Origin: a virus
Virus record (IMG/VR): IMGVR_UViG_3300030098_001818
Coordinates: 1-37,154 of that record
Strand: one strand, 5' to 3'
DNA: 37,154 nt
Positions 1-37,154 of this stretch are shown here, piece by piece. Under the pieces are notes generated by a model that was given only the letters and a program-made list of their open reading frames with translations, ran no database searches and was not told the origin of the DNA. How positions within the stretch are numbered: position 1 is the first letter of the stretch; every line of letters starts with the position of its first letter. Position numbers and translations under genes: made by a program.

Positions 1-87
1 CAAAAAGAACTAGATGAAATACTAGAAGATCTTGATAACAACTGGCATGAATTTAACAACAATGAAAAAGGAGGAAGTGATGAGTAA
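1..87 (+). CDS. 3' end of small early protein (allele A), truncated by window start
   Basis: The frame is open from base 1 and gives 28 codons plus TAA. The first 56 bases are identical to 35,658-35,713, which lie in the same codon phase inside the complete gene at 35,436-35,723. This is therefore the tail of a second version of that gene. After the identical block the two differ: this copy ends with extra residues (NNNEKGGSDE) where the other ends after two Asn codons. Function is unknown. The tail is acidic and probably helical. Confidence 0.75.
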   Translation, partial: QKELDEILEDLDNNWHEFNNNEKGGSDE

Positions 88-277
88 TTTTGCTCTTGAC
101 TTGATAAACGATCAGATAATGGAGATGGACAAAGCTATGCTACTTGATGAGTTATCATCAGGCTTCATCTCCAGGATCAAGCTAATGTTCCTAAGTACAT
201 ATCAACTTAGAGTTCTCATGCGAGAACAACTTTTACAAAACGATTACTACGATGAGGAGGTTAACGATGAATCTTAG
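80..277 (+). CDS. small hypothetical protein, present only in allele A
   Basis: The gene encodes 65 residues. The start at 80 is chosen because GGAGG stands 5 nt before the ATG, and the ATG overlaps the stop of the preceding gene (ATGAGTAA). The protein is helical and Leu/Met-rich, with an acidic C-terminus (YYDEEVNDES). I do not recognise the family. The corresponding place in the second copy of this segment (about 35,713-35,741) has no such gene, so it is an insertion or deletion difference between the two versions. It overlaps the next gene by 11 nt. Confidence 0.65.
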   Translation: MSNFALDLINDQIMEMDKAMLLDELSSGFISRIKLMFLSTYQLRVLMREQLLQNDYYDEEVNDES

Positions 278-719
278 TAAAGAACAAATTGATGTTAAAG
301 CAATTAGATACAATGAGTTGCTACACATCATAAAAGAATCAACTGAAGAGAAAGCAAGATTAGAACTTGAACTCAAAGATGAGTTTAAGGCTAGGTCTGA
401 AGAGGAATGGGCTAGTAGGCTAGTAGGGAACGAGATGGAAATAAAGAGGGGAAAGATAAATAAAACTGCAAGTGCGGATGATCTTCGGGCTGCGGTAGGG
501 GAGTTGGTAGATGAGAAAACACTTAACTCAATCATCAAACAAAAAGTTGTTGAGATAAAAGAAGTTCCTAATGAGAGGGAGATCAACAAACTTTTAACTG
601 AAGGTGGTGAGGTGGAAAAATCACGGCATCAAGGAGGGAGCTATGATAGGAAGACACATACTATTCCCAGAGGAATTATGGGAGAAATTATTGGCTTTAG
701 AAAAACTAACAGGCAATAA
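267..719 (+). CDS. coiled-coil early protein, Gp157-like in outline (allele A)
   Basis: The gene encodes 150 residues. The start at 267 has GGAGGTTAA immediately upstream. The N-terminal half is a charged predicted coiled coil. A conserved core follows (EEEWAS-LVGN, then DDLRAAVGE) and is shared with the protein at 36,164's upstream neighbour (35,742-36,167). The outline resembles siphovirus Gp157-type proteins encoded beside recombination genes, but that assignment is weak. Oddity: this copy has lost the stop used by its counterpart and reads 77 nt into the next gene, so its last 26 or so residues are translated from an alternative frame of that gene and have no equivalent in the other version. 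Confidence 0.7.
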   Translation: MNLSKEQIDVKAIRYNELLHIIKESTEEKARLELELKDEFKARSEEEWASRLVGNEMEIKRGKINKTASADDLRAAVGELVDEKTLNSIIKQKVVEIKEVPNEREINKLLTEGGEVEKSRHQGGSYDRKTHTIPRGIMGEIIGFRKTNRQ

Positions 720-795
720 ACCATCACAATTAGTCAGGCAATTCGTAATTGCTGGAGTAAAAGATAAGCTATCGGAGGTAAACAATGGCAAGTAA
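643..795 (+). CDS. ribbon-helix-helix (Arc/CopG-like) small protein (allele A)
   Basis: The gene encodes 50 residues. The start at 643 follows AGGAGGGAG at good spacing, and the same start is conserved in the second version at 36,164. A short N-terminal strand (RHILFPEE) is followed by two helices joined at TGNKPSQLVRQF. That is the pattern of RHH DNA-binding domains, which dimerise and place the strand in the major groove. It overlaps the following annealing-protein gene by 11 nt and is probably translationally coupled to it. It could regulate the recombination or replication genes, or be a structural DNA-binding partner. Target is unknown. Confidence 0.6.
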   Translation: MIGRHILFPEELWEKLLALEKLTGNKPSQLVRQFVIAGVKDKLSEVNNGK

Positions 796-1537
796 AGATA
801 TACATCCAGAAGATTTAGGAGAATTTATAGTTGAAACTAAATTGAAAAGATCCATGAAAGTAAAAGAAACTATGGTCGAGGACATAAAAGGTGGAGATTA
901 TGGACAAATTAAGGGAGTTACAGGAACTTTCCTGCTTATAAGTGGTGCAGCAAAACTTGCAGATGACTTTGGATACTATGCGGTATTAAAAGAACTTAAA
1001 GAAGAAGCACTTGGGGAAGGTAACCTAAAGATAACTACAACTCTTGATATCATGGATGTAGATGGGAAGCAGATTGGATCAGGTGTTGGAACTTGGGATA
1101 CAACTGAACGAGGGCTACCTGATCGTCAAAGAGGAATGGCCATCAGTTATAAAAGGGCTTTCGTGCTTGGAATTAGATACGCTTGTAATGCTTTTGGTTT
1201 GTTTTCTCAAGACGAGGACATTGTTAAAAGAAGTGCGGCGGGAGAAGTTGCTGGTGTATTCCAAAATACTCAAGGCTCAGCTTACCAACGAAACGATTCA
1301 CAAGATCAAGGTAAAGACCAATCATATAGCACTTTAAAACCTTGCAAAGAGGATGAAAATGGAGTTTGGATAGTTACTATGAACATGGGTTCAGGAGCTT
1401 GGCAAACCTACAAGGGTAAAGAGTTAATTGATGTTGTAAAAAATGATACTGCTTGGGCAAACTGGTGTTTAGAGAAATCTAACTTAGATCCAGATTGTAA
1501 AAAAGCTATTGTTGCTGCGGCAGAGGGTAAACTCTAA
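785..1537 (+). CDS. putative single-strand annealing / ssDNA-binding protein with ExoX-like C-terminal motif (allele A)
   Basis: The gene encodes 250 residues. The N-terminal two thirds have the pattern of phage single-strand annealing proteins of the Rad52/ERF-like type. There is a helix (ISGAAKLADDFG), strands (KITTTLDI-DGK-IGSGVGTWD) and a basic helix (RGMAISYKRAFVLGIRYAC) ending in FSQDEDI. After a Gln/Ser-rich linker (about 155-185) comes a 60-residue module with the pattern YKGKELIDVVKND-WANW-LE---LD, which resembles the C-terminal domain of exodeoxyribonuclease X-like proteins. It probably anneals or protects single-stranded DNA in phage recombination and replication. It overlaps the initiator gene by one base (TAATG). 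A diverged second version lies at 36,318-37,052. Confidence 0.65.
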   Translation: MASKDIHPEDLGEFIVETKLKRSMKVKETMVEDIKGGDYGQIKGVTGTFLLISGAAKLADDFGYYAVLKELKEEALGEGNLKITTTLDIMDVDGKQIGSGVGTWDTTERGLPDRQRGMAISYKRAFVLGIRYACNAFGLFSQDEDIVKRSAAGEVAGVFQNTQGSAYQRNDSQDQGKDQSYSTLKPCKEDENGVWIVTMNMGSGAWQTYKGKELIDVVKNDTAWANWCLEKSNLDPDCKKAIVAAAEGKL

Positions 1538-2295
1538 TGTCGTTTGCTCATCATGGATGGGCATTTAGATTAGACGGATTAAAGTCAGGGCAAAGACTCC
1601 TGTTGTTAGTGTTACTTGATTACGCTAGGGATGGTTGTCTTTGTGCTTGGCCCAGTCAGAAGATTCTAAGTCAGAAGACAGGGCTTGTTGAAAGACAGAT
1701 ACGAAGGTTGCTGCTACAACTCCAGGATCTGAAACTGATACAAATATCTAAGGCTCAAACAAAAGGTAAATATGTTGGTAATGTCTATCGGATAATTACT
1801 GGTGATAACTCAAGAGAACACGATGAAAATTGCATACAATTCGTAGGACATTTTTCTGATGACTCTAACCTAAACCATAGGACATCGGTGTCCGATGGAC
1901 ATGACAACGATAAAAACCAGAGGACATCTATGTCCGATGGATCAAGAAAAGAAAAAAGTAATACAAAAAAGAAAAGAATAATAAATCTTAATAAAAAGAA
2001 AGAAAGTATAAAGAAAGAAAAAGATTGGGTTCTGACACTAGAGAAAGTACCTGGACTAAATATTTCTGAAGATTGGATCGATATGCAGGAAAAAAGATTT
2101 TCTGATAACATTCTCCATAATTCAGCTTTGGCTTTTTTTACAGCAGTCGAGATTGAAAAGAAATACAAATACAAACAACCATTAACTGCATTTATAAATT
2201 GGTGCAAAAAGGAGGAACAACGAAATGGAAAAACTAAACTTCGATCACTTGAAGCGGGAAAGCCCACAGGGGAAGACATATTCGACAAGCTATGA
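1537..2295 (+). CDS. winged-helix replication initiator-like protein (lambda O-like role)
   Basis: The gene encodes 252 residues. The N-terminal about 90 residues form a winged helix-turn-helix (LVLLDYARDG-AWPSQKILSQKTGLVERQIRRLLLQLQDLKLI) of the type found in phage replication proteins. A Lys-rich linker (about 130-165) leads to a C-terminal region with an aromatic helix (AFINWCKKEEQ) like those of DnaD/DnaT-type proteins. The gene directly precedes a DnaC-like helicase loader, as lambda O precedes P. Its coding sequence contains iteron-like repeats at 1,879-1,941, a typical place for a phage origin. The start ATG overlaps the previous stop. The first 103 nt recur almost unchanged at 37,052-37,154. 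Confidence 0.7.
   Translation: MSFAHHGWAFRLDGLKSGQRLLLLVLLDYARDGCLCAWPSQKILSQKTGLVERQIRRLLLQLQDLKLIQISKAQTKGKYVGNVYRIITGDNSREHDENCIQFVGHFSDDSNLNHRTSVSDGHDNDKNQRTSMSDGSRKEKSNTKKKRIINLNKKKESIKKEKDWVLTLEKVPGLNISEDWIDMQEKRFSDNILHNSALAFFTAVEIEKKYKYKQPLTAFINWCKKEEQRNGKTKLRSLEAGKPTGEDIFDKL
1844..2030. other. candidate replication origin: iterons plus A-rich tract inside the initiator gene
   Basis: Two 21-bp repeats, AGGACATCggtGTCCGATGGA (1,879-1,899) and AGGACATCtatGTCCGATGGA (1,921-1,941), differ at two bases and start exactly 42 bp apart, four helical turns. Each contains an inverted pair GGACA/TGTCC. A partial site TAGGACAT lies at 1,844-1,851. A strongly A-rich stretch (about 1,942-2,030) follows at once. 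This mirrors the lambda origin, where iterons and an AT-rich tract lie inside gene O. Function is inferred from position and layout. Confidence 0.55.
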
Positions 2296-4202: not shown

Positions 4203-4578
4203 ATCAACATGGAAAAACTGGGAGAGATGGTGGAGAGAAAAGCTGGGTGGAGATAAGGTGAACGCAAAACGAATACCAGTAACTGGCAGACATTCAGGAG
4301 ATGTGCCTGATATAGAAACAATCAAGTTTGCTGGTGAAGTAAAAGCTGGTAGCGTTGTTAGTTCTAGGACATTAAAAGCCGTAGATCAAGCCAGGAAGGC
4401 TGCTAATGCTACGGGCAAAATACCAATAGTATGTCAGACTCATAAGGTAAACAAAAATAAAGCAGTTCATTTAGTAACTATGGAAGCTGATATATTTTTA
4501 GATATTACAAAACACATTAGAAAAGAAGAGATGAGAATCAAGAGAAGTCTTGACTCAAGTAAAGATTTAGGAATATGA
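4195..4578 (+). CDS. PD-(D/E)xK nuclease, Holliday-junction-resolvase-like
   Basis: The gene encodes 127 residues. The N-terminal helix (WKNWERWWREKLGG) is followed by the strand RIPVTGRHSGDVPDIE and then FAGEVKAG. The residues D36/D39, E48 and K50 match the PD-(D/E)xK catalytic pattern of archaeal Hjc-like and phage resolvase-like nucleases. A following helix (AVDQARKAANATGKIP) and strand complete the small fold. The likely role is resolving branched DNA before packaging, or processing recombination intermediates. This fits the neighbouring annealing protein. It is coupled to the next gene by ATGA. Confidence 0.7.
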   Translation: MDRSTWKNWERWWREKLGGDKVNAKRIPVTGRHSGDVPDIETIKFAGEVKAGSVVSSRTLKAVDQARKAANATGKIPIVCQTHKVNKNKAVHLVTMEADIFLDITKHIRKEEMRIKRSLDSSKDLGI

Positions 4579-4853
4579 AAGACGAAGAAAAATATGAATT
4601 AGGGCCATGCCCATTTTGTGGAGGAGATACTCTTGAGTTTACAAGGCCAGTTGCTGCTTATGACAATTCTCGTACTTCACAAGAAAAGGGAGTTGAATTG
4701 ATTGCTCGTGATACTCACAAAATCAGTAGTCAACTTAGATTTTTAGGAACTGCCTGCACAGCAGATGATTGTGGAATAGGAATGATTACAGGAAGAGGGC
4801 AGTTTGAGCCAAGACATCCAGACAACATTAGGTACCCAGCAAATGAAAATTGA
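4575..4853 (+). CDS. Lar-like restriction-alleviation zinc-ribbon protein
   Basis: The gene encodes 92 residues. It begins with the CPFCGG knuckle (C12, C15) typical of Lar-type proteins. The second pair is C61 and C66 (ACTADDCGIGM), with a somewhat longer central insert than usual. Known Lar proteins relieve host type I restriction by modulating host methylation. Many phage proteins carry this knuckle without proof of that role. The neighbouring methyltransferase makes an anti-restriction cluster plausible. It overlaps the next gene by 11 nt. Confidence 0.6.
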   Translation: MKDEEKYELGPCPFCGGDTLEFTRPVAAYDNSRTSQEKGVELIARDTHKISSQLRFLGTACTADDCGIGMITGRGQFEPRHPDNIRYPANEN

Positions 4854-5100: not shown

Positions 5101-5160
5101 AATGACATTCTATTTTGGGAAATTTTGGGAAACTCTCCATTCTCGGTATGGACAACTTTA

Positions 5161-5189
5161 TTTACATGAATTACATTCTAGTATAAAAT
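5161..5189 (+). promoter_or_regulatory. sigma70-like promoter for the 5.2-kb small RNA
   Basis: TTTACA (5,161-5,166), a 17-bp spacer and TAAAAT (5,184-5,189). A 7-bp inverted pair, TGGACAA at 5,149-5,155 and TTGTCCA at 5,193-5,199, brackets the promoter and could be an operator. Predicted transcription starts near 5,196. Confidence 0.45.
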
Positions 5190-5195
5190 TATTTG

Positions 5196-5299
5196 TCCAC
5201 ACTACTTGAATTAACCTCCAAGTTAGTGGATTGTTTGTGAAGACTCCTGGCTTCCTTTGTTAACCTCCAAGTTAATTACTGGTCGGGAGTCTTTTTTTA
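5196..5299 (+). ncRNA. candidate phage small RNA, antisense to early-gene leaders
   Basis: The region between gene ends holds no ORF but has a promoter (5,161-5,189) and an intrinsic terminator (5,241-5,298), predicting an RNA of about 100 nt. It carries TTAACCTCCAAGTTA twice (5,211-5,225 and 5,260-5,274). Each copy can form a hairpin TTAAC/GTTA(A) with CTCCAA in the loop. TTAACCTCCA is the exact complement of the TGGAGGTTAA Shine-Dalgarno leaders at 33,157, 33,286 and 33,980. Bases 5,230-5,239 (ATTGTTTGTG) complement the leader motif CACAAACAAT. Bases 5,230-5,247 complement 34,361-34,379 with one bulged base, spanning the cleavage site of the third hammerhead. A minus-strand leader with no gene after it is the alternative. 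Confidence 0.5.
5241..5298 (+). terminator. intrinsic terminator with a long loop
   Basis: AGACTCC (5,241-5,247) pairs with GGAGTCT (5,286-5,292), extended by A5240-T5293, and is followed by a T run ending at 5,298. The 38-nt loop contains a second small hairpin, TTAAC-CTCCAA-GTTAA (5,260-5,275). It ends the rightward operon and the candidate small RNA. Confidence 0.75.
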
Positions 5300-5420: not shown

Positions 5421-5448
5421 TTGACAATGGACTGCATTAGTATATAAT
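5421..5448 (+). promoter_or_regulatory. consensus sigma70 promoter upstream of the 5,510 gene
   Basis: Both hexamers are perfect: TTGACA (5,421-5,426), a 16-bp spacer and TATAAT (5,443-5,448). It would be read by unmodified host RNA polymerase immediately after infection. It lies downstream of the 5.3-kb terminator, so the 5,510 gene is a separate transcription unit. Confidence 0.8.
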
Positions 5449-5449
5449 C

Positions 5450-5499
5450 GATTGTAGAGATTTTAATTTTTTAATCTCAAAACAAACAATCTACGGAGG
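5450..5499 (+). promoter_or_regulatory. structured 5' leader of the 5,510 gene
   Basis: The leader begins near the predicted start site. GATTGT (5,450-5,455) can pair with ACAATC (5,486-5,491), and inside it GAGATT (5,457-5,462) pairs with AATCTC (5,473-5,478). The 3' arm overlaps the recurring leader motif ACAAACAAT (5,482-5,490), which is followed by GGAGG (5,495-5,499). It is the only copy of this leader outside the 32-35 kb early region. It has no hammerhead core. Confidence 0.45.
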
Positions 5500-5509
5500 T
5501 AGAAATAAA

Positions 5510-6022
5510 ATGAGTTTAGAAATAATAGAAAAAAAGAATTATACCGAAGTGTGGATGTGGAGGAGTACATTCAAAACAATGTATAAAGCTAAAGATTCAA
5601 TATGGCTAGATAAAGGAGACAGGATTCACATTCCAACAGGCAGTTTTAGATACAAAAAATATATTGCTTACAATGAGGAACAATTAATTAGAAAATCAAG
5701 TATCAAAACAATTTATGGATCTAATAAACCAATAAATGGATTATTGTCAGAAATGGATAACCAAAAAGAATACTATGCTTTAGATACATTGTTTGATATG
5801 GAGCATGAACTTGGATTATATCCTTGTAATGCTAGTGATTACGAATGGGGTAGAGATAAATGTTATGGGTTAAGATTTAGCGTTAAAAATTTAATTGGTT
5901 TTACAGAAATATCAGATGGAAGTATTTGTCCGATATGTGATGAACGATATATTTGGGGTCATGGAGATTTTTTTCCTGATAAAGAATATTTAGAAGAAAG
6001 AATGGTTGATAAGAATTTGTAG
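5510..6022 (+). CDS. hypothetical early protein with CPIC motif
   Basis: The gene encodes 170 residues. The ATG follows GGAGG by 10 nt and a perfect-consensus promoter. The sequence is rich in Tyr, Trp and charged residues: an N-terminal strand-rich part (YTEVWMWRSTFKTMYKAKDS), a middle helical segment, and a C-terminal C-P-I-C pair in SICPICDERYIWGHGD, possibly half of a metal site with nearby Cys/His. I recognise no family. Its isolated position, own strong promoter and early-type leader suggest an immediate-early host-interaction gene. It converges on the late operon, with only 7 nt between stop codons. Confidence 0.7.
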   Translation: MSLEIIEKKNYTEVWMWRSTFKTMYKAKDSIWLDKGDRIHIPTGSFRYKKYIAYNEEQLIRKSSIKTIYGSNKPINGLLSEMDNQKEYYALDTLFDMEHELGLYPCNASDYEWGRDKCYGLRFSVKNLIGFTEISDGSICPICDERYIWGHGDFFPDKEYLEERMVDKNL

Positions 6023-8414: not shown

Positions 8415-8665
8415 TATTTCTTCTTCCTCTTGGTAGTAGTTTTTTTCTTTTTACCACCTCTAAGAAGATCTGAATCAGCTTTTCTTGCACCACCTTTACC
8501 GCTTACGAAAGACTTTACTCTTCCCATAGCCCACTGGTGAGCTGAAACCTTTGGTCTACTACCAGATGAATAGTATGCACCAAGTCCTCTTTTATATACT
8601 TTATCAAGAGTAGACTTAGAGTATCTACTTGCACCTGATATGCTTTTATATCTTCCTGATGCCAT
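8414..8665 (-). CDS. small basic DUF5824-like phage protein
   Basis: The gene encodes 83 residues. The signature YKRGLGAYYSSGSRP then SAHQWAMGRVKSFVSGKGGARKADSDL is characteristic of DUF5824-type proteins, which recur in marine phages and are probably virion-associated. The tail is Lys/Arg/Thr-rich (GGKKKKTTTKRKKK). It is coupled on both sides by TAATG overlaps. Confidence 0.75.
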   Translation of the reverse strand: MASGRYKSISGASRYSKSTLDKVYKRGLGAYYSSGSRPKVSAHQWAMGRVKSFVSGKGGARKADSDLLRGGKKKKTTTKRKKK

Positions 8666-27571: not shown

Positions 27572-29499
27572 TATACTCCTAGTCCTGGTGGTAGATCTCT
27601 TCCTTGCACTCTTCTGTTTCCAGTACGAGGTGAAGCTATCTGTCTACCGACTAATTCTTGTTCTCTTAAACTCCCAGGAACAACAGGTCTTGTATTTGTC
27701 TCTACTCTTGCCCTTTCTGTCGCAGGAGATCTTTGAGGTTGGTTAGTTGTACTAAAATTACCAGCATTAGGTAATTGTGTTTGTCCTTGAGTGTTAAGTA
27801 TATTCTGTGCTATCTGTTCAGCTTCTTGTCCGCTTGCTGCACCACTTGCTTCAACTAACTGTTGGAGTATTGGCACTCTTCTAGCAGCTTCACCTTGCAA
27901 TACTTGTTGTACTTGCTCACTCTTTAGGAATCCTTCTGCAAGTAATTTAGATCTTACTTCAAGTGCATTTGACACACCTGCTTTTCTAAGTGCAGTATCT
28001 TGATCAATGAATCCTGTTCTCCAAAGACTATTGTAAAGATTTAGTTTTCTTTCCTGTTCTTCTGGAGATGTAGGAGTAAGTTGTACCATGTTTACATAGT
28101 GACCTCTAATATCGTTTGGTCTTATGATTGCATCCATAGGCCCTGTTTCTGTTTTACCAAATACAGTTACCTTGTCTTGAATTACATTCTCGATAATGTG
28201 CAAGATAATAGAGTTTCTATCTTGTAATCCTCTCTGGGCTGCTTCTACATACGCACCAAAGTTAAGTGCAGCTATACCTGCTAATACAGCCGTATGATAA
28301 CCACTTGCAGCACCAGTTGGTCTTTGACCTCTTGATACGGCAGGTGCAGTGTTATCCTCAATAGCTTGTTGCATCATCTGCTGTGCAACCACAATAGAAC
28401 TCGGTGGATCTGGTGTGATTGCTCTTTCTATGTTTACGTTTTGAGGTAAGAAGTTCTTAGCACCAGGTGTCTCTTCGTACTGTTCCATAACCTGTTCTGT
28501 AATACCAGGAGGACCTCTAAAGTCTCTAGTAGGCCAAGCACTGTTACCAACAATATCTAGGTACTGAGATGCAAGTCTTGATTCTGCTCTAAGCATATCA
28601 AAGTTACCATGCAGTATTCCTCTGTAGAGTTTTTCGGGATCATACCCGTCACTCATTAGACCTGTGTGGGGCCAGTACATTGTAAAAGGCAAAGTCTTGT
28701 AGCCGTGTCGCTTCGGCTCTAATGCGAATTTGCCCTCAGCCATGTAACATACTTGACTGTGAGTCCAGGTTTCCACAAATTCCACTGTTCCTTCTACAGG
28801 TCCATCCCATGACGGAAAGTGAGCTTTTACCCATGATGCATCAATTTCGTAAAAGTGCATCACCCATCGTGGGTTCTGTATATTGTTGATATCCCAAACC
28901 ATCATCTTGGGATTTACGCAAGTTGAGGTTATAGGCCAGTTTATATTTCTTCTGTTAAGTACATCTTGTAGTTGCTCTTGATAATTACCAATGTCACCAT
29001 CTTCTGGTGGCTCAGGAAACTCTTCCCATCTGTTGGCTGCAAATTCAGTCTTTTCAAAGGCAACTCCATAAAGTGCCATGTGTTTTGCTGTTTCTCTTCT
29101 TGTTGGTGAGAACTGCTCAAGCATATGATTCGCACCCCTGAGAAACTTCTCAAGCAGTTCTGCTCTTGCACTTCCTTTAGGGCCTGGTGGTGGTACTGAT
29201 ATATCTAAAAATTGTGGTGTGACGTGAGCAACAAGTGTGTTGATTGTTGAACTTGCAGTTCCAAGTCTTATCTGTGAACCTGTCTCTGGAACTGAAAAAT
29301 CAAAGTTTGATAAATAAAAATCTTCGGCTTCTTCGCAGTTGTCGTAGAATGTGTCAAATTTTCTTCTTCCGCTTTCAAGAGTATTCTCTACCCACTCAAT
29401 AGTAAGTAAAGGCTCTTCTAACGGATTAGCACCCTCTCGTGCTATCTCTTCTTCAGGGTTGACACTGCTGCCAGAACCTGAACCATAACTCATTGTCAT
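27571..29499 (-). CDS. portal protein
   Basis: The gene encodes 642 residues, in the size range of large podovirus-type portals. It directly follows the large terminase gene with an ATGA overlap. Visible segments include RKFDTFYDNCEEAEDFYLSN, STINTLVAHVTPQFLDISVP, KHMALYGVAFEKTEF, DINNIQNPRWVMHFYEIDAS and LYRGILHGNFDMLRAESRLA, followed by a helical C-terminus with a Gln/Ala-rich region. The assignment rests on length, the wing/stem-like middle and the terminase-portal order. It forms the dodecameric DNA entry ring. Confidence 0.8.
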   Translation of the reverse strand: MTMSYGSGSGSSVNPEEEIAREGANPLEEPLLTIEWVENTLESGRRKFDTFYDNCEEAEDFYLSNFDFSVPETGSQIRLGTASSTINTLVAHVTPQFLDISVPPPGPKGSARAELLEKFLRGANHMLEQFSPTRRETAKHMALYGVAFEKTEFAANRWEEFPEPPEDGDIGNYQEQLQDVLNRRNINWPITSTCVNPKMMVWDINNIQNPRWVMHFYEIDASWVKAHFPSWDGPVEGTVEFVETWTHSQVCYMAEGKFALEPKRHGYKTLPFTMYWPHTGLMSDGYDPEKLYRGILHGNFDMLRAESRLASQYLDIVGNSAWPTRDFRGPPGITEQVMEQYEETPGAKNFLPQNVNIERAITPDPPSSIVVAQQMMQQAIEDNTAPAVSRGQRPTGAASGYHTAVLAGIAALNFGAYVEAAQRGLQDRNSIILHIIENVIQDKVTVFGKTETGPMDAIIRPNDIRGHYVNMVQLTPTSPEEQERKLNLYNSLWRTGFIDQDTALRKAGVSNALEVRSKLLAEGFLKSEQVQQVLQGEAARRVPILQQLVEASGAASGQEAEQIAQNILNTQGQTQLPNAGNFSTTNQPQRSPATERARVETNTRPVVPGSLREQELVGRQIASPRTGNRRVQGRDLPPGLGV

Positions 29500-31010
29500 A
29501 AGGCTTTAGTTCCTTCTTCTTCCATGGCAAGGAGTTTTCTCTCTTCTCTCCACCTCAAGATCCTCGATCCCTTGCTTCTGTAGTTGCTATTTAGAGGTTT
29601 AATACCTCGTTTTGATCTAGGAGCTGTAAGTAGTTCCATGACTTCTTGTGCAGGATCGCAAGCCATTAAAGCTAAACATTCTGCATCAACCCAGTCATCC
29701 CTACCTCCAGACACCGAATAGAACTGGTGACCTCGATTTGCCGTTTCCCTATGAGCAATATCTTCTAACTGACTTATTAGTTTACCCCAACTCTGTGGAA
29801 ATGCAACAGTCTCTTTTTCAAGTGACAATGCATAATCTAAGAACAACTGATACTTTTTACTTGGTGTAAAGTTGTATCCTATTACAGGAATAGAATGTTC
29901 TAGTAATTCACGATACAGCACATCTTCTCCCAGTTTACCACCCAGTCCTGTTGAGTCCATGTAGACCTCTTCTATGTTCCATCTAATAGCTTCATTCTTG
30001 ATTGTTTCTACCTGAAGTGACCAATCAGTCTTTGTAAGTTCTACAGCAAATACGGATGTTCTTGTCATTCTATCTTTGATTACCATGACTGTTGGATCAT
30101 TGGCTCTACCTAAGTCAAGACCTGCAACATAACTTGCTTCTTCAAGTGGCTGCATAAGTTCGTAGGCATCTTTGGTGTATGCCTTTGTTATATTTCTAAA
30201 AAAGTTACCTGCTCCCTCTGGTTGTTTTGCCATGTAGAATCTCTCCCATATACCCTCAGTAAGAGATCCTTTCTCTTCTTCAATCTCAAGTCTGTCATCT
30301 TCTGTAAGGTAGGGGTTGTCAAAGGTGGATGCGTGAAAAGCCTGTCTTCTTGTAGAAGGGGTTTCCTTTGCAATCTTAAAGTTCCTTGCAAACCAATGCT
30401 GAGAACTCTCTGGAGGAACACCCTCAACAATGGCCCTACCCAATCTTCCAGGAGAGTTAAGTGTAGGTCTGACCTTGTTCCACGCAGCTTCTTTGATGTC
30501 TTGGGATTCTGCCATGTGTAGAAAATCAAGACCTACAGTCTGTAATCCTTCAGGGTTGTCAGCAGACTTAAGTTCCCAAAATACAGATTGTCTCCATCTG
30601 TTGGGTAACCAGTTGCCTTTCTCATCTTTTAAATCTAACCATACATGTAAGTCATCTTGTTTAAATCCACCACCTCTACCACCAGCTTGTGCTTTGGTTC
30701 TCGTTTTACGAACTATGTGTTTTGGAATAAAGGCCTGCATCTCATTCCATACCTGCATCATCTGAGCTCTTGTAGGTGCAACAGTCCAAATATGAATAGG
30801 AGGTACAAGTCCTGCTTGTTCTGCGGTTAACTTTTCTTTCTTACCTGGAAACTGTACAGGGTTTATTGATGCTTCTCTGATTTGTCGTAATGCTTCCTGT
30901 AGAGCAGATCTAGTTTTACCTGCTCGTCTTCCAGCCTGTACAAATTTAATTTTAGCTTTTGACTCGTGCATTTCTTTTTGCCAAGGATACGCTTCATATA
31001 GGTTAGCCAT
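29496..31010 (-). CDS. terL: large terminase subunit (packaging ATPase and nuclease)
   Basis: The gene encodes 504 residues. Walker A is AGRRAGKTR at 26-34. A Walker B-like strand GLDFLHMAE is at 160-168. The RNase H-like nuclease domain has AGLDLGRANDPTVMV (acid D299), VYMDSTGLGG (D352) and GGRDDWVDAECLALM (D438/D439/D442). This order of ATPase then nuclease is the complete large-terminase architecture. It pumps DNA through the portal and cuts concatemers. It lies 18 nt downstream of the putative small-subunit gene and overlaps the portal gene by 4 nt. Confidence 0.93.
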   Translation of the reverse strand: MANLYEAYPWQKEMHESKAKIKFVQAGRRAGKTRSALQEALRQIREASINPVQFPGKKEKLTAEQAGLVPPIHIWTVAPTRAQMMQVWNEMQAFIPKHIVRKTRTKAQAGGRGGGFKQDDLHVWLDLKDEKGNWLPNRWRQSVFWELKSADNPEGLQTVGLDFLHMAESQDIKEAAWNKVRPTLNSPGRLGRAIVEGVPPESSQHWFARNFKIAKETPSTRRQAFHASTFDNPYLTEDDRLEIEEEKGSLTEGIWERFYMAKQPEGAGNFFRNITKAYTKDAYELMQPLEEASYVAGLDLGRANDPTVMVIKDRMTRTSVFAVELTKTDWSLQVETIKNEAIRWNIEEVYMDSTGLGGKLGEDVLYRELLEHSIPVIGYNFTPSKKYQLFLDYALSLEKETVAFPQSWGKLISQLEDIAHRETANRGHQFYSVSGGRDDWVDAECLALMACDPAQEVMELLTAPRSKRGIKPLNSNYRSKGSRILRWREERKLLAMEEEGTKAL

Positions 31011-32726: not shown

Positions 32727-32757
32727 GCAAACAAACAATTTCATGGAGGTAAAAAAC

Positions 32758-33081
32758 ATGGAAAACAATAAAAAAGAAAACAACATTTTGCTTGATAGCA
32801 GCGGGGATTTATTCGGTTTAAAACCTGATGATGTTTTTAATGCTCATTCTGAAAACTTAAATGTAATGAGGTTTAGAATTGACAACCCAAGAAGAGTAGA
32901 ATTATCACAAGCAAGATATCATACAGATTTTGAAGTATTCATTTCTGATGACACTGAGCAACTAGAAAAACTTATTAAGTGGGCTCAGACTTTGCAAAAA
33001 GGGGCTAAGAAACACCTTAAGAAATTAAATAAAAAACTTGAGCAGCAAAAAAAACTTGAAGAGTTTGAAGCAAAATTATAG
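32758..33081 (+). CDS. early protein with C-terminal coiled coil, unknown function
   Basis: The gene encodes 107 residues. The start at 32,758 follows TGGAGGTAAAAAAC. An in-frame ATG at 32,743 lies in the Shine-Dalgarno itself and is unlikely. The N-terminal half contains LLDSSGDLFGLKPDDVFNAH, and a strand region follows (MRFRIDNPRRVELSQARYHT). The C-terminus is a basic-acidic coiled coil (LKKLNKKLEQQKKLEEFEAK). It is not recognised. It sits between ribozymes 1 and 2, whose second stem I begins at the last base of its stop codon. Confidence 0.65.
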   Translation: MENNKKENNILLDSSGDLFGLKPDDVFNAHSENLNVMRFRIDNPRRVELSQARYHTDFEVFISDDTEQLEKLIKWAQTLQKGAKKHLKKLNKKLEQQKKLEEFEAKL

Positions 33082-33139
33082 TGTTTCTGATGAGGTTTTA
33101 ATAACTGAAATAGCCCGATTTTTTCGGGCTATAAAACAC
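33081..33139 (+). ncRNA. hammerhead ribozyme 2 (type I)
   Basis: Stem I is GTGTTT (33,081-33,086) with AAACAC (33,134-33,139), six perfect pairs. The core CTGATGA is 33,087-33,093. Stem II is GGTT/AACT (33,094-33,106), closed by a G-U pair. The core GAAA is 33,107-33,110. Stem III is TAGCCCGA/TCGGGCTA (33,111-33,118 and 33,124-33,131) with a T loop, closed by A33110-U33132. The cleavage triplet is AUA, so cleavage falls between 33,133 and 33,134. It starts on the last base of the upstream stop codon. Cleavage would place ACAAACAATTT at the new 5' end of the next mRNA. Confidence 0.85.
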
Positions 33140-33170
33140 AAACAATTTATAAAAAATGGAGGTTAAAAAA

Positions 33171-33245
33171 ATGGATAATGAAATAATAAAAATCATTACT
33201 AGCCCGACTGAATCGGACTTAATTAACGAAATACTTTACAAATAA
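33171..33245 (+). CDS. 24-residue early microprotein
   Basis: ATG follows GGAGGTTAAAAAA, the strong leader, and opens MDNEIIKIITSPTESDLINE ending ILYK. It has a good ribosome-binding site and lies between ribozyme 2 and a promoter. Its last codons overlap the -35 box of the next promoter. It may be a true microprotein or a leader peptide. Nothing matches it that I know. Confidence 0.45.
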   Translation: MDNEIIKIITSPTESDLINEILYK

Positions 33246-33268: not shown

Positions 33269-33300
33269 AAATGCAAACAATTTCATGGAGGTTAAAAATC

Positions 33301-33975
33301 ATGAACACACAAGAAAAAATATACGAAATGCTTACAGAGTCAACAGGAACCCACTTTTTAGATAGTGGCGGCTCAAATAATAGACACTGGCAGCAAAACC
33401 AAAAAAAGACACTTGAAGATTTTCAAAATGAAAAACATTTTCAAGTTGAAAAAAACGAATACGGCGACAATCAAGTTGAATGGTTATTAAATATTTCGTT
33501 GTTTCATCATCTAAGCGATTCCCTAACTTATGATGAACAAGAAACCCACAATTTAAATAGTTTCTTAGAATCTGAAGGGCTTGCTAGTGATATGGCTGGA
33601 ATTGATGAATATGTTGCATCTGGATATTGTTCAGGCGGTCAAGAATTAAAAACGATCAATTCATACAATGAAGAGTGCGATTTATCGCAAACTATTCAAT
33701 TTCATTATGTAGGCGATATTTACGAATCGGACACAATATATCTACAAATTCACGGCGGTGCGGATGTACGGGGCGGTTACACGGATATCGTAGCGTTTAA
33801 AGTTGATTGGGATTCGCTGCTAAATTGGTACTATTCAGAAGAGGATATTTTGGAGTTTTTCGTACCATGTTTAATATGCAACGATGAGAATTGTATAGAC
33901 AAGAACGGCACACACATAACAAACAACATGGTTACGGGCTTCGGATTACCAAATTTACAAACAATTAAAAACTAA
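33301..33975 (+). CDS. conserved early phage protein of unknown function
   Basis: The gene encodes 224 residues from the ATG at 33,301, which follows TGGAGGTTAAAAATC. A longer in-frame start at 33,271 lies in the leader and is rejected. The N-terminal pattern ESTGTHFLDSGGSNNRHWQQ and the later LQIHGGADVRGGYTDIVAFK are hallmarks of a phage protein family seen in many early regions, with no known function. A CLICNDENC segment near the C-terminus is a possible metal site. It is the largest protein of this early block. Its last codons overlap the next gene's leader motif. Confidence 0.75.
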   Translation: MNTQEKIYEMLTESTGTHFLDSGGSNNRHWQQNQKKTLEDFQNEKHFQVEKNEYGDNQVEWLLNISLFHHLSDSLTYDEQETHNLNSFLESEGLASDMAGIDEYVASGYCSGGQELKTINSYNEECDLSQTIQFHYVGDIYESDTIYLQIHGGADVRGGYTDIVAFKVDWDSLLNWYYSEEDILEFFVPCLICNDENCIDKNGTHITNNMVTGFGLPNLQTIKN

Positions 33976-33993
33976 TTCATGGAGGTTAAAAAC

Positions 33994-34287
33994 ATGAAAG
34001 TAATAATTAAAAATCCAACAGGTGAAAAAATAAAAAAACTTGTTGATGACGGAGTCCAAGTACATTGGGCAAATGAGAGATACATAGTAAAAAAAGACAC
34101 AATAGGCAACTACAATGTAATTGATGAATATAATCATAATTGTATTGGCTTGACAGATAAGACAGGGAATTTATTAAATACCAATCAAAATTATTTTTAT
34201 AGTGTTTATGACTATTTAATTACAAGTCATGAAAATAAAATGATGAAAAAATACGGATGTAATTTAAATTCCATAACATCTAAATAA
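33994..34287 (+). CDS. small early protein, unknown function
   Basis: The gene encodes 97 residues from 33,994 after TGGAGGTTAAAAAC. The first 15 nt of the longer reading belong to the leader. The sequence alternates strands and turns (MKVIIKNPTGEKIKKLVDDG, VHWANERYIVKKDTIGNYNV) with an aromatic helix near the end (YFYSVYDYLITSHENKMMKK). No family recognised. Ribozyme 3 lies 28 nt downstream. Confidence 0.65.
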   Translation: MKVIIKNPTGEKIKKLVDDGVQVHWANERYIVKKDTIGNYNVIDEYNHNCIGLTDKTGNLLNTNQNYFYSVYDYLITSHENKMMKKYGCNLNSITSK

Positions 34288-34315: not shown

Positions 34316-34372
34316 GTGTAACTGATGAAGGCTAATGCTAGAAACTCCCTGATATTTCAGGGAGTCTTACAC
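34316..34372 (+). ncRNA. hammerhead ribozyme 3 (type I)
   Basis: Stem I is GTGTAA (34,316-34,321) with TTACAC (34,367-34,372), six perfect pairs. The core CTGATGA is 34,322-34,328. Stem II is weak: GGC/GCT with one G-U pair and an A-A mismatch at 10.1/11.1 (34,329-34,340). The core GAAA is 34,341-34,344. Stem III is CTCCCTGA/TCAGGGAG (34,345-34,364), eight pairs around TATT, closed by A34344-U34365. The cleavage triplet is the classical GUC, so cleavage falls between 34,366 and 34,367. Stems I and III differ in sequence from ribozyme 2 but keep pairing. The preceding TTATAGTGT is shared with ribozyme 2. Confidence 0.83.
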
Positions 34373-34392
34373 AAACAATAAATGGAGGTCTT

Positions 34393-34608
34393 ATGACTAA
34401 AAAAAGTCAAATAACAATACCTGATTTAATTGCTCTTACTTGCGATATATCAGATGAGATTCTGAGGTTATCTTTTAAGGGTGATATAGATGAGGAACAT
34501 GAAAACGGCAGCGTATCTTACACAGATGCGGCTCAAGATGTTTTCAATCAAATAAATGATCGCATAGAGGGAGTTATTCTTACTTATATGCAAAAATTGG
34601 AGGATTAA
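34393..34608 (+). CDS. small acidic early protein
   Basis: The gene encodes 71 residues. The ATG follows TGGAGGTCTT just behind ribozyme 3. The protein is acidic and helical (ITIPDLIALTCDISDEILRL, AAQDVFNQINDRIEGVILTY). Possibly a small inhibitor or adaptor; no family recognised. The following gene starts 3 nt after its stop, with GGAGG inside its last codons. Confidence 0.65.
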   Translation: MTKKSQITIPDLIALTCDISDEILRLSFKGDIDEEHENGSVSYTDAAQDVFNQINDRIEGVILTYMQKLED

Positions 34609-34816: not shown

Positions 34817-34896
34817 TACAAGCAATTTTGAACTAGGAGGTAATGGACCACTAACACAAGTAAATACAATCAATCAACTAACAAAAAAGGTTAACA

Positions 34897-35217
34897 ATGA
34901 AAAACATTATAGCAAACTTAGAACCATATACAGATGAAATTGAATACGATGATTTTCAATCTGATATTACGGATGAGTTTACAAAACACAAATTCAAAAA
35001 AGTTTATGTTGAGGGCAAAGACTTAACATGGAGAAACTTAACTGGTACTCAAAAATTTATTCTTGATGAACCAATGGACATCGTTTGGAAATTAGTACCA
35101 ACAAATGCAGACTTTACATACAGAATAGAAAAAATTACAAACAATCACTACAAAGTTGAATCATCTAATCACGATGGTAAAGAATACTTTGAAATAAAAA
35201 TAAGAAAGGTTAGTTAA
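34897..35217 (+). CDS. small early protein, unknown function
   Basis: The gene encodes 106 residues. The start is preceded by AAAAGGTTAAC. The unusually long 5' leader from the promoter at 34,781 contains a second, apparently unused GGAGG. The protein is charged and beta-rich (KFKKVYVEGKDLTWRNLTG, FTYRIEKITNNHYKVESSN). No family recognised. It abuts the next gene (TAA then ATG, adjacent). Confidence 0.6.
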   Translation: MKNIIANLEPYTDEIEYDDFQSDITDEFTKHKFKKVYVEGKDLTWRNLTGTQKFILDEPMDIVWKLVPTNADFTYRIEKITNNHYKVESSNHDGKEYFEIKIRKVS

Positions 35218-35436: not shown

Positions 35437-35723
35437 TGACAAAACAAGAATTAATAACATACTTTGGGGAAAGAATTGGCAAAGATGTTAAAAGTAAAAA
35501 CATTATAAAAAAAGGTAATTGGATATTTTATCAAGATCCCTCATGGATACATGACTTTCCTAATGATGTTGAGGTATACAATTTTCCTTGTGGTAGCGTT
35601 GCTGAATGTTTCACAGAAATAAAAAAAGATAAATCGCCATTTAATAAGAACTTGGATCAAAAAGAACTAGATGAAATACTAGAAGATCTTGATAACAACT
35701 GGCATGAATTTAAAAACAATTAA
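35436..35723 (+). CDS. small early protein (complete version; its tail recurs at the window start)
   Basis: The gene encodes 95 residues. The N-terminal helix (KQELITYFGERIGKDVK) is followed by strands (KGNWIFYQDPSWIHDFPNDV) and an acidic C-terminal helix (LDQKELDEILEDLDNNWHEF). Bases 35,658-35,713 are identical to 1-56. No family recognised. This gene marks where the two versions of the early segment begin to be shared. Confidence 0.65.
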   Translation: MTKQELITYFGERIGKDVKSKNIIKKGNWIFYQDPSWIHDFPNDVEVYNFPCGSVAECFTEIKKDKSPFNKNLDQKELDEILEDLDNNWHEFKNN

Positions 35724-35741
35724 AAAGAAAGAGGTTAAATA

Positions 35742-36167
35742 ATGAGTCTAAGTAGACAAGAAATAGATACTCTTGCTAACAGGTTGGAGACAATCAATAG
35801 CATGATGAAATCAATGAAAGAAGATAAAGCAAAAATAGAAAGAGAGATTGAGATTGAGTTTGAGGAACGATCTGAGAACACTTGGGCCAGTGAGTTAGTA
35901 GGTAACAACATGATTCTAAAAAGAGGATCAACTAAAGTTATTAAACCTGATGACTTACGAGCAGCAATAGGGGAGTGGGTAGAACCTGAAGAACTAGACA
36001 GATGTATTGTTCCTGAACATACAGAAATAAAAACTATACCTGAAAAGGTAAGTGTAGCTGAAGTTAATAAAATTCATAAACAAGGCGGGGAGTTGGCAAA
36101 TCAAATAGATAAAGCAACTAAAAAAATTACATCATCAATAAAAGTTTCAAAGAAGGAGGAACTATGA
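35742..36167 (+). CDS. coiled-coil early protein, Gp157-like in outline (allele B)
   Basis: The gene encodes 141 residues. An N-terminal coiled coil (NRLETINSMMKSMKEDKAKI) precedes the conserved core NTWASELVGNNMILKRG and DDLRAAIGEWVEPEEL. Unlike the version at 267-719, it ends cleanly with an ATGA overlap onto the RHH gene after a Lys/Thr-rich tail. It is the more regular of the two versions. Resemblance to Gp157-type proteins is suggestive only. Confidence 0.7.
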   Translation: MSLSRQEIDTLANRLETINSMMKSMKEDKAKIEREIEIEFEERSENTWASELVGNNMILKRGSTKVIKPDDLRAAIGEWVEPEELDRCIVPEHTEIKTIPEKVSVAEVNKIHKQGGELANQIDKATKKITSSIKVSKKEEL

Positions 36168-36328
36168 TAGGAAGACACATACTATTCCCAGAAGAAATAT
36201 GGGAAGATTTAAAAGCAATAGCCAAGCTAACAGGTAATTCACCATCAGCTTTAGTAAGACAATTCGTTGTTGATGGGGTTACACGAACACTACACCATGC
36301 AAATAAGGAGGTAAAGAATGGCAAGTAA
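36164..36328 (+). CDS. ribbon-helix-helix small protein (allele B)
   Basis: The gene encodes 54 residues. GGAGGAACT precedes the ATG, which overlaps the previous stop. The strand RHILFPEE and the turn TGNSPSALVRQFV match the RHH pattern of the version at 643-795. The first 31 bases of the two genes are identical and they then diverge. It overlaps the annealing-protein gene by 11 nt exactly as in the other version. Confidence 0.6.
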   Translation: MIGRHILFPEEIWEDLKAIAKLTGNSPSALVRQFVVDGVTRTLHHANKEVKNGK

Positions 36329-37052
36329 AGATATACATCCAGAAGATTTAGGAGAATTTATAGTTGAAAGTAAATTACAACGATCTAACAAGCTAAAAAA
36401 CTCAATGAAAGAAGGAGTTGACTTTGGCAAGATTGAGGGCAAAACATCAGATTTCCTTTGGGTAGGTGGTGCAGCAAAGTTAGCAGAAGAGTTTGGGCTT
36501 AACGCAACACTAAAAGAAATCAACGAAGAGCCGTTTGGTGAAGGTTGCAAGATTACAATTATATTGGACATCGTTGAGTCTGATGGAAAGGTTGTAGGTA
36601 CGGGAGTTGGTACTTGGGATAATGGAGAGATACTTGGCAACATGAAAGGTGCTAGGCAAAGAGGATTGGCTATGGCATACAAGAGGGCTTATGTCTTGGG
36701 TATTAGGTATGCAAGCAATAGCTTTGGTATCTTTAGTCAGGATGATGATGTTGTAAGGTATGCAGACGAACCACAACAACAATCTGAATGGAAACCAAAT
36801 CAGATTCAAGAACAACCAAAAAGACAATACGATCCTGATGCACCATTTACACCATGTAAAGAGGATGAAAATGGAGTTTGGAAAGTTGTAATTGGTGGTA
36901 AAGAGGGAACACCCTGGTCTGAATACAAAGGTAAAGAACTTATAGATGTTGTTAAGAATGATGTTGGTTGGGCAAATTGGGTATTGGCTAGACCAAACTT
37001 AGATTCATCTTGTAGAGAAGCCATTGAAAATGCAGCCACAGGTAAGCTCTAA
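36318..37052 (+). CDS. putative single-strand annealing / ssDNA-binding protein (allele B)
   Basis: The gene encodes 244 residues. It has the same architecture as the protein at 785-1,537: a helix (VGGAAKLAEEFG), strands (CKITIILDI-DGK-VGTGVGTWD), a basic helix (RGLAMAYKRAYVLGIRYASN), FSQDDDV, a Gln-rich linker and the C-terminal ExoX-like module (YKGKELIDVVKND-GWANW). Identity to the first version is high in the first 17 residues and in the C-terminal module, and lower between. The linker is unrelated. The last base overlaps the initiator start (TAATG). Confidence 0.65.
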   Translation: MASKDIHPEDLGEFIVESKLQRSNKLKNSMKEGVDFGKIEGKTSDFLWVGGAAKLAEEFGLNATLKEINEEPFGEGCKITIILDIVESDGKVVGTGVGTWDNGEILGNMKGARQRGLAMAYKRAYVLGIRYASNSFGIFSQDDDVVRYADEPQQQSEWKPNQIQEQPKRQYDPDAPFTPCKEDENGVWKVVIGGKEGTPWSEYKGKELIDVVKNDVGWANWVLARPNLDSSCREAIENAATGKL

Positions 37053-37154
37053 TGTCGTTTGCTCATCATGGATGGGCATTTAGATTAGACGGATTAAAGT
37101 CAGGACAAAGGCTTCTGTTGTTAGTGTTACTTGATTACGCTAGGGATGGTTGTC
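37052..37154 (+). CDS. start of replication initiator, truncated by window end
   Basis: There are 34 complete codons, identical in protein sequence to the first 34 residues of the gene at 1,537 apart from silent DNA changes. The last 40 bases are identical between the two. This is where the window closes on itself, and the remainder of the gene is that at 1,640-2,295 if the molecule is circular. Confidence 0.8.
   Translation, partial: MSFAHHGWAFRLDGLKSGQRLLLLVLLDYARDGC

Follow-up and report, generated by a model that had tools for sequence, protein, structure and literature searches.

Anti-Shine-Dalgarno RNAs and phage early-gene control

Small RNAs that pair with Shine-Dalgarno sequences have an established effect, a block of translation, and a group of Staphylococcus aureus sRNAs carries C-rich anti-Shine-Dalgarno loops. 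Most of what is known of early-gene shut-off in phages concerns proteins, e.g., T4 RegA and RegB. In the Alphaproteobacteria, the CCUCCUCCC anti-Shine-Dalgarno sRNAs (‘cuckoo RNAs’) include SmelA075/SmelA099 and RSs0680a (PMC3927594). S. aureus RNAIII pairs with two distant regions of the coa mRNA and arrests its translation (PMC2837412).

A predicted small-RNA locus beyond the replication operon

The window, i.e., the whole stretch of DNA analysed here (W), is the IMG/VR phage record IMGVR_UViG_3300030098_001818 (37,154 nt). The + strand carries replication genes (replication initiator, DnaC-like loader, methyltransferase, resolvase-like) between the left end and 5100 and small early genes that begin at ~32,400; late genes, including the terminase at 29496-31010, are on the - strand. 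The same genes stand at both ends of the window (1-1640 and 35658-37154) in diverged copies of 79-94% identity, as if the record had gone once round a ~35.66 kb circle and finished in a second strain; the record of relative G2 likewise closes with another phage type.

The next + strand gene after the replication operon is at 5510, and the intergenic locus that separates the two has the following parts:

5130-5159 (no strand assigned): imperfect dyad AAACTCTCC-N11-GGACAACTTT, 5' of the sRNA promoter; candidate operator/activator site
5161-5189 (+): sRNA promoter TTTACA-17-TAAAAT, sigma70-like, 10/12 consensus; kept in relatives G1, G2 and G3
5196-5299 (+): small RNA of ~104 nt, predicted fold -34.1 kcal/mol (z = -5.05; 0/200 shuffles equally stable); homologues in G1, G2 and G3
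5196-5230 (+): hairpin 1 by predicted fold, loop TTAACCTCCA at 5211-5220; G3 has a different stem, with compensatory changes, around the same loop
5228-5239 (+): single-stranded antisense segment GGATTGTTTGTG, complementary to leader element CACAAACAATCC; kept in 4/4 type A RNAs (see below)
5239-5299 (+): terminator hairpin (about 5239-5294) and T run; its loop holds a second hairpin, GTTAAC-CTCCAA-GTTAAT, at 5259-5276

The original prediction of a promoter-like pair and a strong terminator enclosing about 100 nt is borne out by the promoter at 5161-5189 and the RNA at 5196-5299 with its terminator, and there is no ORF within 5161-5299, as is typical of a trans-encoded sRNA that has a promoter and an intrinsic terminator of its own. 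The fold also reproduces the predicted display of CTCCAA in two loops, one in hairpin 1 and one within the terminator hairpin, where a second TTAACCTCCA copy lies at 5260-5269. The loops of the RNA read UUAACCUCCA and CUCCAA and the single-stranded segment reads AUUGUUUGUG, so that each loop holds an anti-Shine-Dalgarno motif as in the cuckoo RNAs; the perfect CCUCCUCCC loop is absent from the small RNA sequence. Rfam gave no family above gathering score anywhere in the window and no match to 5161-5299 even at E <= 10.

Complementarity to the phage's own early leaders

With gene starts taken from a simple home-made caller, and with part of the RNA-leader match being the generic Shine-Dalgarno core, a fresh count found 8 of the window's own early leaders complementary to the small RNA by at least 9 nt, several of them in two parts (duplex energies in kcal/mol):

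256-265 (+): leader of gene 267-719 (GGAGGTTAAC); 10-nt complement to 5259-5268
5482-5500 (+): leader ACAAACAATCTACGGAGGT of gene 5510-6022; 10-nt complement to 5229-5238; duplex -26.0
32731-32750 (+): leader of gene 32758-33081; ACAAACAAT plus TGGAGGT; duplex -20.9
33137-33166 (+): hammerhead-linked leader of the 24-codon ORF at 33173; two ordered 10-nt exact complements; duplex about -28 to -30
33273-33295 (+): leader of gene 33301-33975; 10-nt complement plus CAAACAAT; duplex about -23
33957-33989 (+): leader of gene 33994-34287; 10 + 9 nt complements; duplex about -28 to -30
34370-34389 (+): hammerhead-linked leader of gene 34393-34608; CACAAACAAT exact; duplex about -20
34888-34897 (+): AGGTTAACAA 5' of gene 34897-35217; 10-nt complement to 5257-5266

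The complements to three early leaders, to the leader of the gene at 267 and to a shared leader motif had been noted from the window alone, and all were recovered: the TTAACCTCCA copies (5211-5220, 5260-5269) pair exactly with 33157-33166, 33286-33295 and 33980-33989, GTTAACCTCC (5259-5268) pairs with 256-265, and ATTGTTTGTG (5230-5239) pairs with 33137-33146 and 34370-34379. The order of the two antisense parts, described earlier as right for pairing with one leader at once, was confirmed; computed duplexes reach -28 to -30 kcal/mol at the 33137 and 33957 leaders. Beyond these, the leader motif recurs before the 5510 gene, and the genes at 32758, 34393 and 34897 are preceded by additional matches. 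All eight leaders are complementary at translation initiation regions and most lie ~28 kb away on the record, the arrangement of a trans-encoded sRNA; a cis-antisense phage RNA of the OOP/sar type was rejected because the locus is intergenic and its targets are elsewhere. Ranking targets by whole-RNA duplex energies that ignore self-structure was dropped, the values being too noisy.

The leader ACAAACAATCTACGGAGGT follows a perfect TTGACA-16-TATAAT promoter (5421-5509 together) and precedes quite different genes in different phages (170 aa in W, 106 in G1, 533 in G2, 400 in G7), like an accessory-gene cassette site with a fixed leader.

Two of the target leaders are preceded by ribozyme-like elements:

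33081-33139 (+): type I hammerhead-like ribozyme, CTGATGA/GAAA core, stem I GTGTTT/AAACAC; 3' product starts AAACACAAACAAT
34316-34372 (+): type I hammerhead-like ribozyme, stem I GTGTAA/TTACAC, compensatory to the first copy; 3' product starts TTACACAAACAAT

Five aligned copies preceding early leaders in W, G2, G3 and G7 have an invariant core and vary in stem I (TTT/AAA vs TAA/TTA); the CUGAUGA/GAAA core and three stems are present, with stems II and III read by eye. Rfam hammerhead models scored below gathering (Hammerhead_3, 22.9 vs 48.5 bits; RAGATH-1-hammerhead, 29.7 vs 56.3). Type I hammerheads in phage early leaders, here at 33081-33139 and 34316-34372 and in G2, G3 and G7, are unlisted and fall below Rfam thresholds. 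A cleaved mRNA would begin AAACACAAACAAU or UUACACAAACAAU, and thus the partner of the RNA's second segment would sit at the mRNA 5' end. Because RNA and leaders also match in other lineages, where no hammerheads were detected, the RNA-leader system does not depend on the ribozymes. The original prediction of an RNA aimed at the phage's own ribozyme-linked early leaders is supported by the co-variation of loops and leaders (below); its link to hammerheads is genuine and limited to the clade of the window (W, G2, G3 and G7).

Homologous and unrelated RNAs in related phages

Exact pattern and protein searches recovered G1, G2 and G3, whose RNAs are homologous to that of the window (type A) and conserve the promoter, the loop TTAACCTCCA and the segment GGATTGTTTGT. 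Hairpin 1 of G3 has an altered stem that remains paired, and its loop is unchanged. The second loop appears dispensable, since G2 and G3 have a shorter terminator hairpin and a single loop. Leaders of the ACAAACAAT-SD kind occur in W, G1, G2, G3 and G7 (the G7 contig begins just past the terminator) and in 0 of 27 other phages related by a late gene. A search with the neighbouring 170-aa protein found no relatives, and pattern hits L101-L104 were discarded as chance matches within an unrelated coding gene. Isolated phages yielded no close homologue: where their DNA matched the RNA it did so by chance, the early region had no match, and terminase hits were distant only.

For more distant phages, we defined the locus by its neighbourhood (3' of the resolvase-like and 98-aa genes, 5' of the convergent late genes), took genome pieces of the relatives and compared every RNA with the early leaders of the same phage. 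Other promoter-hairpin-terminator units occupy this position, often with an upstream AAACTGTCC element: type B (G4, G24, G32), C (G34, G35), D (G26), E (G33, G17, G21, G37), E' (G36), F (G10), G (G12) and H (G19, G22), with G25 a further variant. G18 has a small ORF at the locus (an RNA-like stretch in G18 was rejected, as it falls within a late coding region), and G5/G6 have no RNA there. The dyad of the window is perfect in relatives (G3: AAACTGTCC..GGACAGTTT) and is kept at the locus in types A and B and partly in E and H. The element AAACTGTCC..ACATTCT 5' of the RNA's -10 (5130-5189 in the window) is kept in types B, E and H and also in G5/G6; it persists where the RNA differs or is missing and is a candidate activator or operator site.

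Several of these RNAs, unrelated in sequence, expose stretches that match their own leaders: CUCAACUCUC with GAGAGUUGAG, UUCCUUUCGCUAA with UUAGCGAAAGGAA, GUUCUCCUUUC with GAAAGGAGAAC, and AUGAUUCUCCUUU with AAAGGAGAAUCAU, the last predicted ahead of reading its leaders. Type C repeats CCTTTCGCTAA twice, with the second copy in the terminator loop, which is the window's design in another sequence. Matches in G26, G10 and G12 are bulged or involve too few leaders for significance alone, and leader numbers in G35 and G1 are likewise too small. An RNA-like hairpin/terminator also occupies the locus in G19, G22 and G25, but it does not match their own leaders, though a match was expected. The terminator loop of G19 and G22 (L172, L173) holds UUUUUC-CUCCAA-GAAAAA, with the CUCCAA loop of the window's second hairpin, their own leaders being unmatched. 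In type B, GAGAGAGAG runs lie within or beside early-gene promoters (L118 of G004, 4240-4400, 4690-4740 and 8520-8550), a possible binding site.

Statistical support for RNA-leader matching

At a threshold of at least 10 nt of perfect complement, the type A RNA matches 17/115 early leaders of its own clade, 0/51 of type B, 0/39 of type C, 4/184 of other phages and 1/146 of its own late leaders; 2000 dinucleotide shuffles gave a mean of 0.83 and none reached 17. The type B RNA matches 8/51 own early leaders (A, 0/115; C, 1/39; own late, 3/70), with shuffles never as high. The type C RNA matches 3/39 (A, 0/115; B, 0/51), a level reached by 79/2000 shuffles and only suggestive alone. Types E and B partially match one another's leaders. 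When eight RNA types were set against eight leader sets, the true pairing was equalled or beaten by 4/40,320 permutations at a threshold of at least 10 nt, 13/40,320 at 9 nt or more and 42/40,320 at 11 nt or more; leaders within a clade are related, so that counts inside a clade are non-independent.

An unbiased scan scored each 100-nt segment, on both strands and with the leader antisense strand omitted, by the number of own early leaders complemented over at least 9 nt. The RNA locus came first or joint first in most phages of the matching lineages. It beat all other places in G2, G24, G33 and G21, and scored 7/21 leaders in G17 and 7/25 in G37 (next best, 3 in both). In W its sole equal was the strand antisense to an uncalled leader at 33135; in G34 it tied with a few - strand places, in G4 with 1 other segment of 6666, and in G10 it led by a narrow margin (4 leaders). 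It was within the top 0.2% in G36 (5 leaders), and in G3 9/2846 segments, mostly - strand beside leaders, equalled or exceeded it. The locus does not stand out in G1, G35, G26, G12, G19, G22 or G25.

The RNA of G36 (GATTCTCCTTT) reads ATGATTCTCCTTTGAATA where its sisters read AGTTCTCCTTTCTT, and from this RNA alone we predicted leaders with GGAGAATC in place of GGAGAAC. A pattern search of G36 confirmed this, with 3 AAGGAGAAT sites and 0 AAGGAGAAC sites; the sisters G37, G17, G21 and G33 show the opposite (2, 3, 2 and 6 AAGGAGAAC sites, respectively, and no AAGGAGAAT). The G36 genome also has two exact 13-nt RNA-leader matches (AAAGGAGAATCAT) and a 12-nt match at the first large early gene (TATTCAAAGGAG), and at 11 nt or more the two RNA kinds never match each other's leaders. 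Independent drift of loops and leaders among relatives, named beforehand as the contrary outcome, was thus not what we found: the two co-vary, as expected of a trans-encoded sRNA, in four to five separate RNA/leader types and most testable lineages, with G19, G22 and G25 as exceptions.

Proposed function and alternative explanations

The RNA and its landing sites change together in several relatives, which strongly suggests a dedicated early-gene off-switch, and the best reading, a probable one, is that the locus encodes an antisense RNA that acts in trans to stop the phage's early genes from being translated. Masking of Shine-Dalgarno sites in its own early leaders is the best-supported reading of how the RNA would act. 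On the phage's early mRNAs, the Shine-Dalgarno region and the ACAAACAAT element 5' of it would be bound by loop 1, the adjoining single-stranded segment and the terminator-hairpin loop, which would block 30S binding and turn early-gene translation off once the RNA is made; a translational block would be the natural outcome, since the pairing covers the Shine-Dalgarno sequence, and pairing would probably hasten mRNA decay. Because the locus ends the replication operon and has its own regulated-looking promoter and a conserved upstream dyad, the RNA is probably made after the early genes and would aid the early-to-late switch. The promoter and terminator sequences, the fold, the complementarity and the co-change of RNA and leaders across lineages are observed; transcription, repression, this timing and the use of a host chaperone are what we infer.

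Most RNA types hold CCUCC or CUCCUUUC, the anti-Shine-Dalgarno core, and type E and B RNAs partly match each other's leaders, as would be expected if the RNA mimicked the 3' tail of 16S rRNA and titrated or blocked Shine-Dalgarno sites generally, in host and phage. We consider this unlikely, as the matches exceed the core in a lineage-specific manner (UUAACCUCCA, CUCAACUCUC, UUCGCUAA, GUUCUCC versus GAUUCUCC), own late leaders are avoided (1/146, type A), and type A has an additional non-Shine-Dalgarno element. Antisense pairing is symmetrical, and early mRNAs could instead sponge the RNA until they decay, the real targets being host mRNAs; that the RNA pairs across the ribosome-binding sites of many genes and co-varies with them is not what a host target would predict, which makes this version very unlikely.

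The locus might also be a mere terminator ending the early operon, with loops left over from an inverted leader copy and without regulatory role. A terminator is needed at this place, and the reverse complement of hairpin 1 resembles a leader (CACAAACAATCC..TTGGAGGTTAA), yet the RNA has its own conserved promoter, the loop is retained while the stem is rebuilt, and unrelated RNAs elsewhere match the leaders of their own lineages; we regard this account as highly improbable. Least credible is a chief role in controlling hammerhead self-cleavage by competition for stem I: AUUGUUUGUG does overlap 3 bases of the stem I 3' strand (AAACAC/UUACAC) at 33137 and 34370, but most target leaders have no hammerhead, and neither do the matched leaders of other lineages as far as detected.

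If the off-switch reading is true, one RNA shuts off a set of early genes, the co-change of RNA and target stands on the evolutionary record in several lineages, and it becomes clear why so many small early genes of these phages, though unrelated, use one leader. The natural RNA/leader pairs are material for studying how sRNA specificity evolves, and the finding would give a rule for annotating regulatory RNAs of uncultured viruses. More tentatively, the whole phage group may use a rapidly diversifying, lineage-private lock-and-key, in which early mRNAs bear their own leader tag and a matching antisense RNA is encoded at one fixed locus. Such a system would give self-specific early shut-off, and insulation from, or interference with, co-infecting relatives.

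Comparison with known systems

No phage RNA of this design appears in a review of the field (PMC12197685) or in the literature that we searched, the coverage of which is incomplete. OOP of lambda, sar of P22 and aQ are also phage RNAs that pair with phage mRNA, but each is antisense to one gene, whereas the window RNA is remote from its targets and multi-target (PMC12197685). VpdS (VP882) and PreS (lambda) are, like it, stand-alone phage-coded trans-acting sRNAs; they are Hfq-dependent with host or mixed host/phage targets, and no co-varying anti-leader design is reported for them there (PMC12197685). RNAIII differs in being a bacterial virulence regulator with host-gene targets. The cuckoo RNAs share short length, 2-4 hairpins, anti-Shine-Dalgarno loop motifs, variable stems and suggested ribosome-binding-site targets on several mRNAs; they are chromosomal and stress-related, with the loop fixed as CCUCCUCCC, whereas the phage loop is lineage-specific and matches its own leaders (PMC3927594). 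T4 RegA/RegB are likewise encoded by a phage and silence many early mRNAs at their Shine-Dalgarno regions, but they are proteins, RegA an RNA-binding repressor and RegB an endoribonuclease cutting GGAG/U (PMC3014915); in the window an RNA would do this by base pairing. The closest architectural parallel is with the CCUCCUCCC multi-hairpin sRNAs, and the functional parallel is with T4 RegA/RegB.
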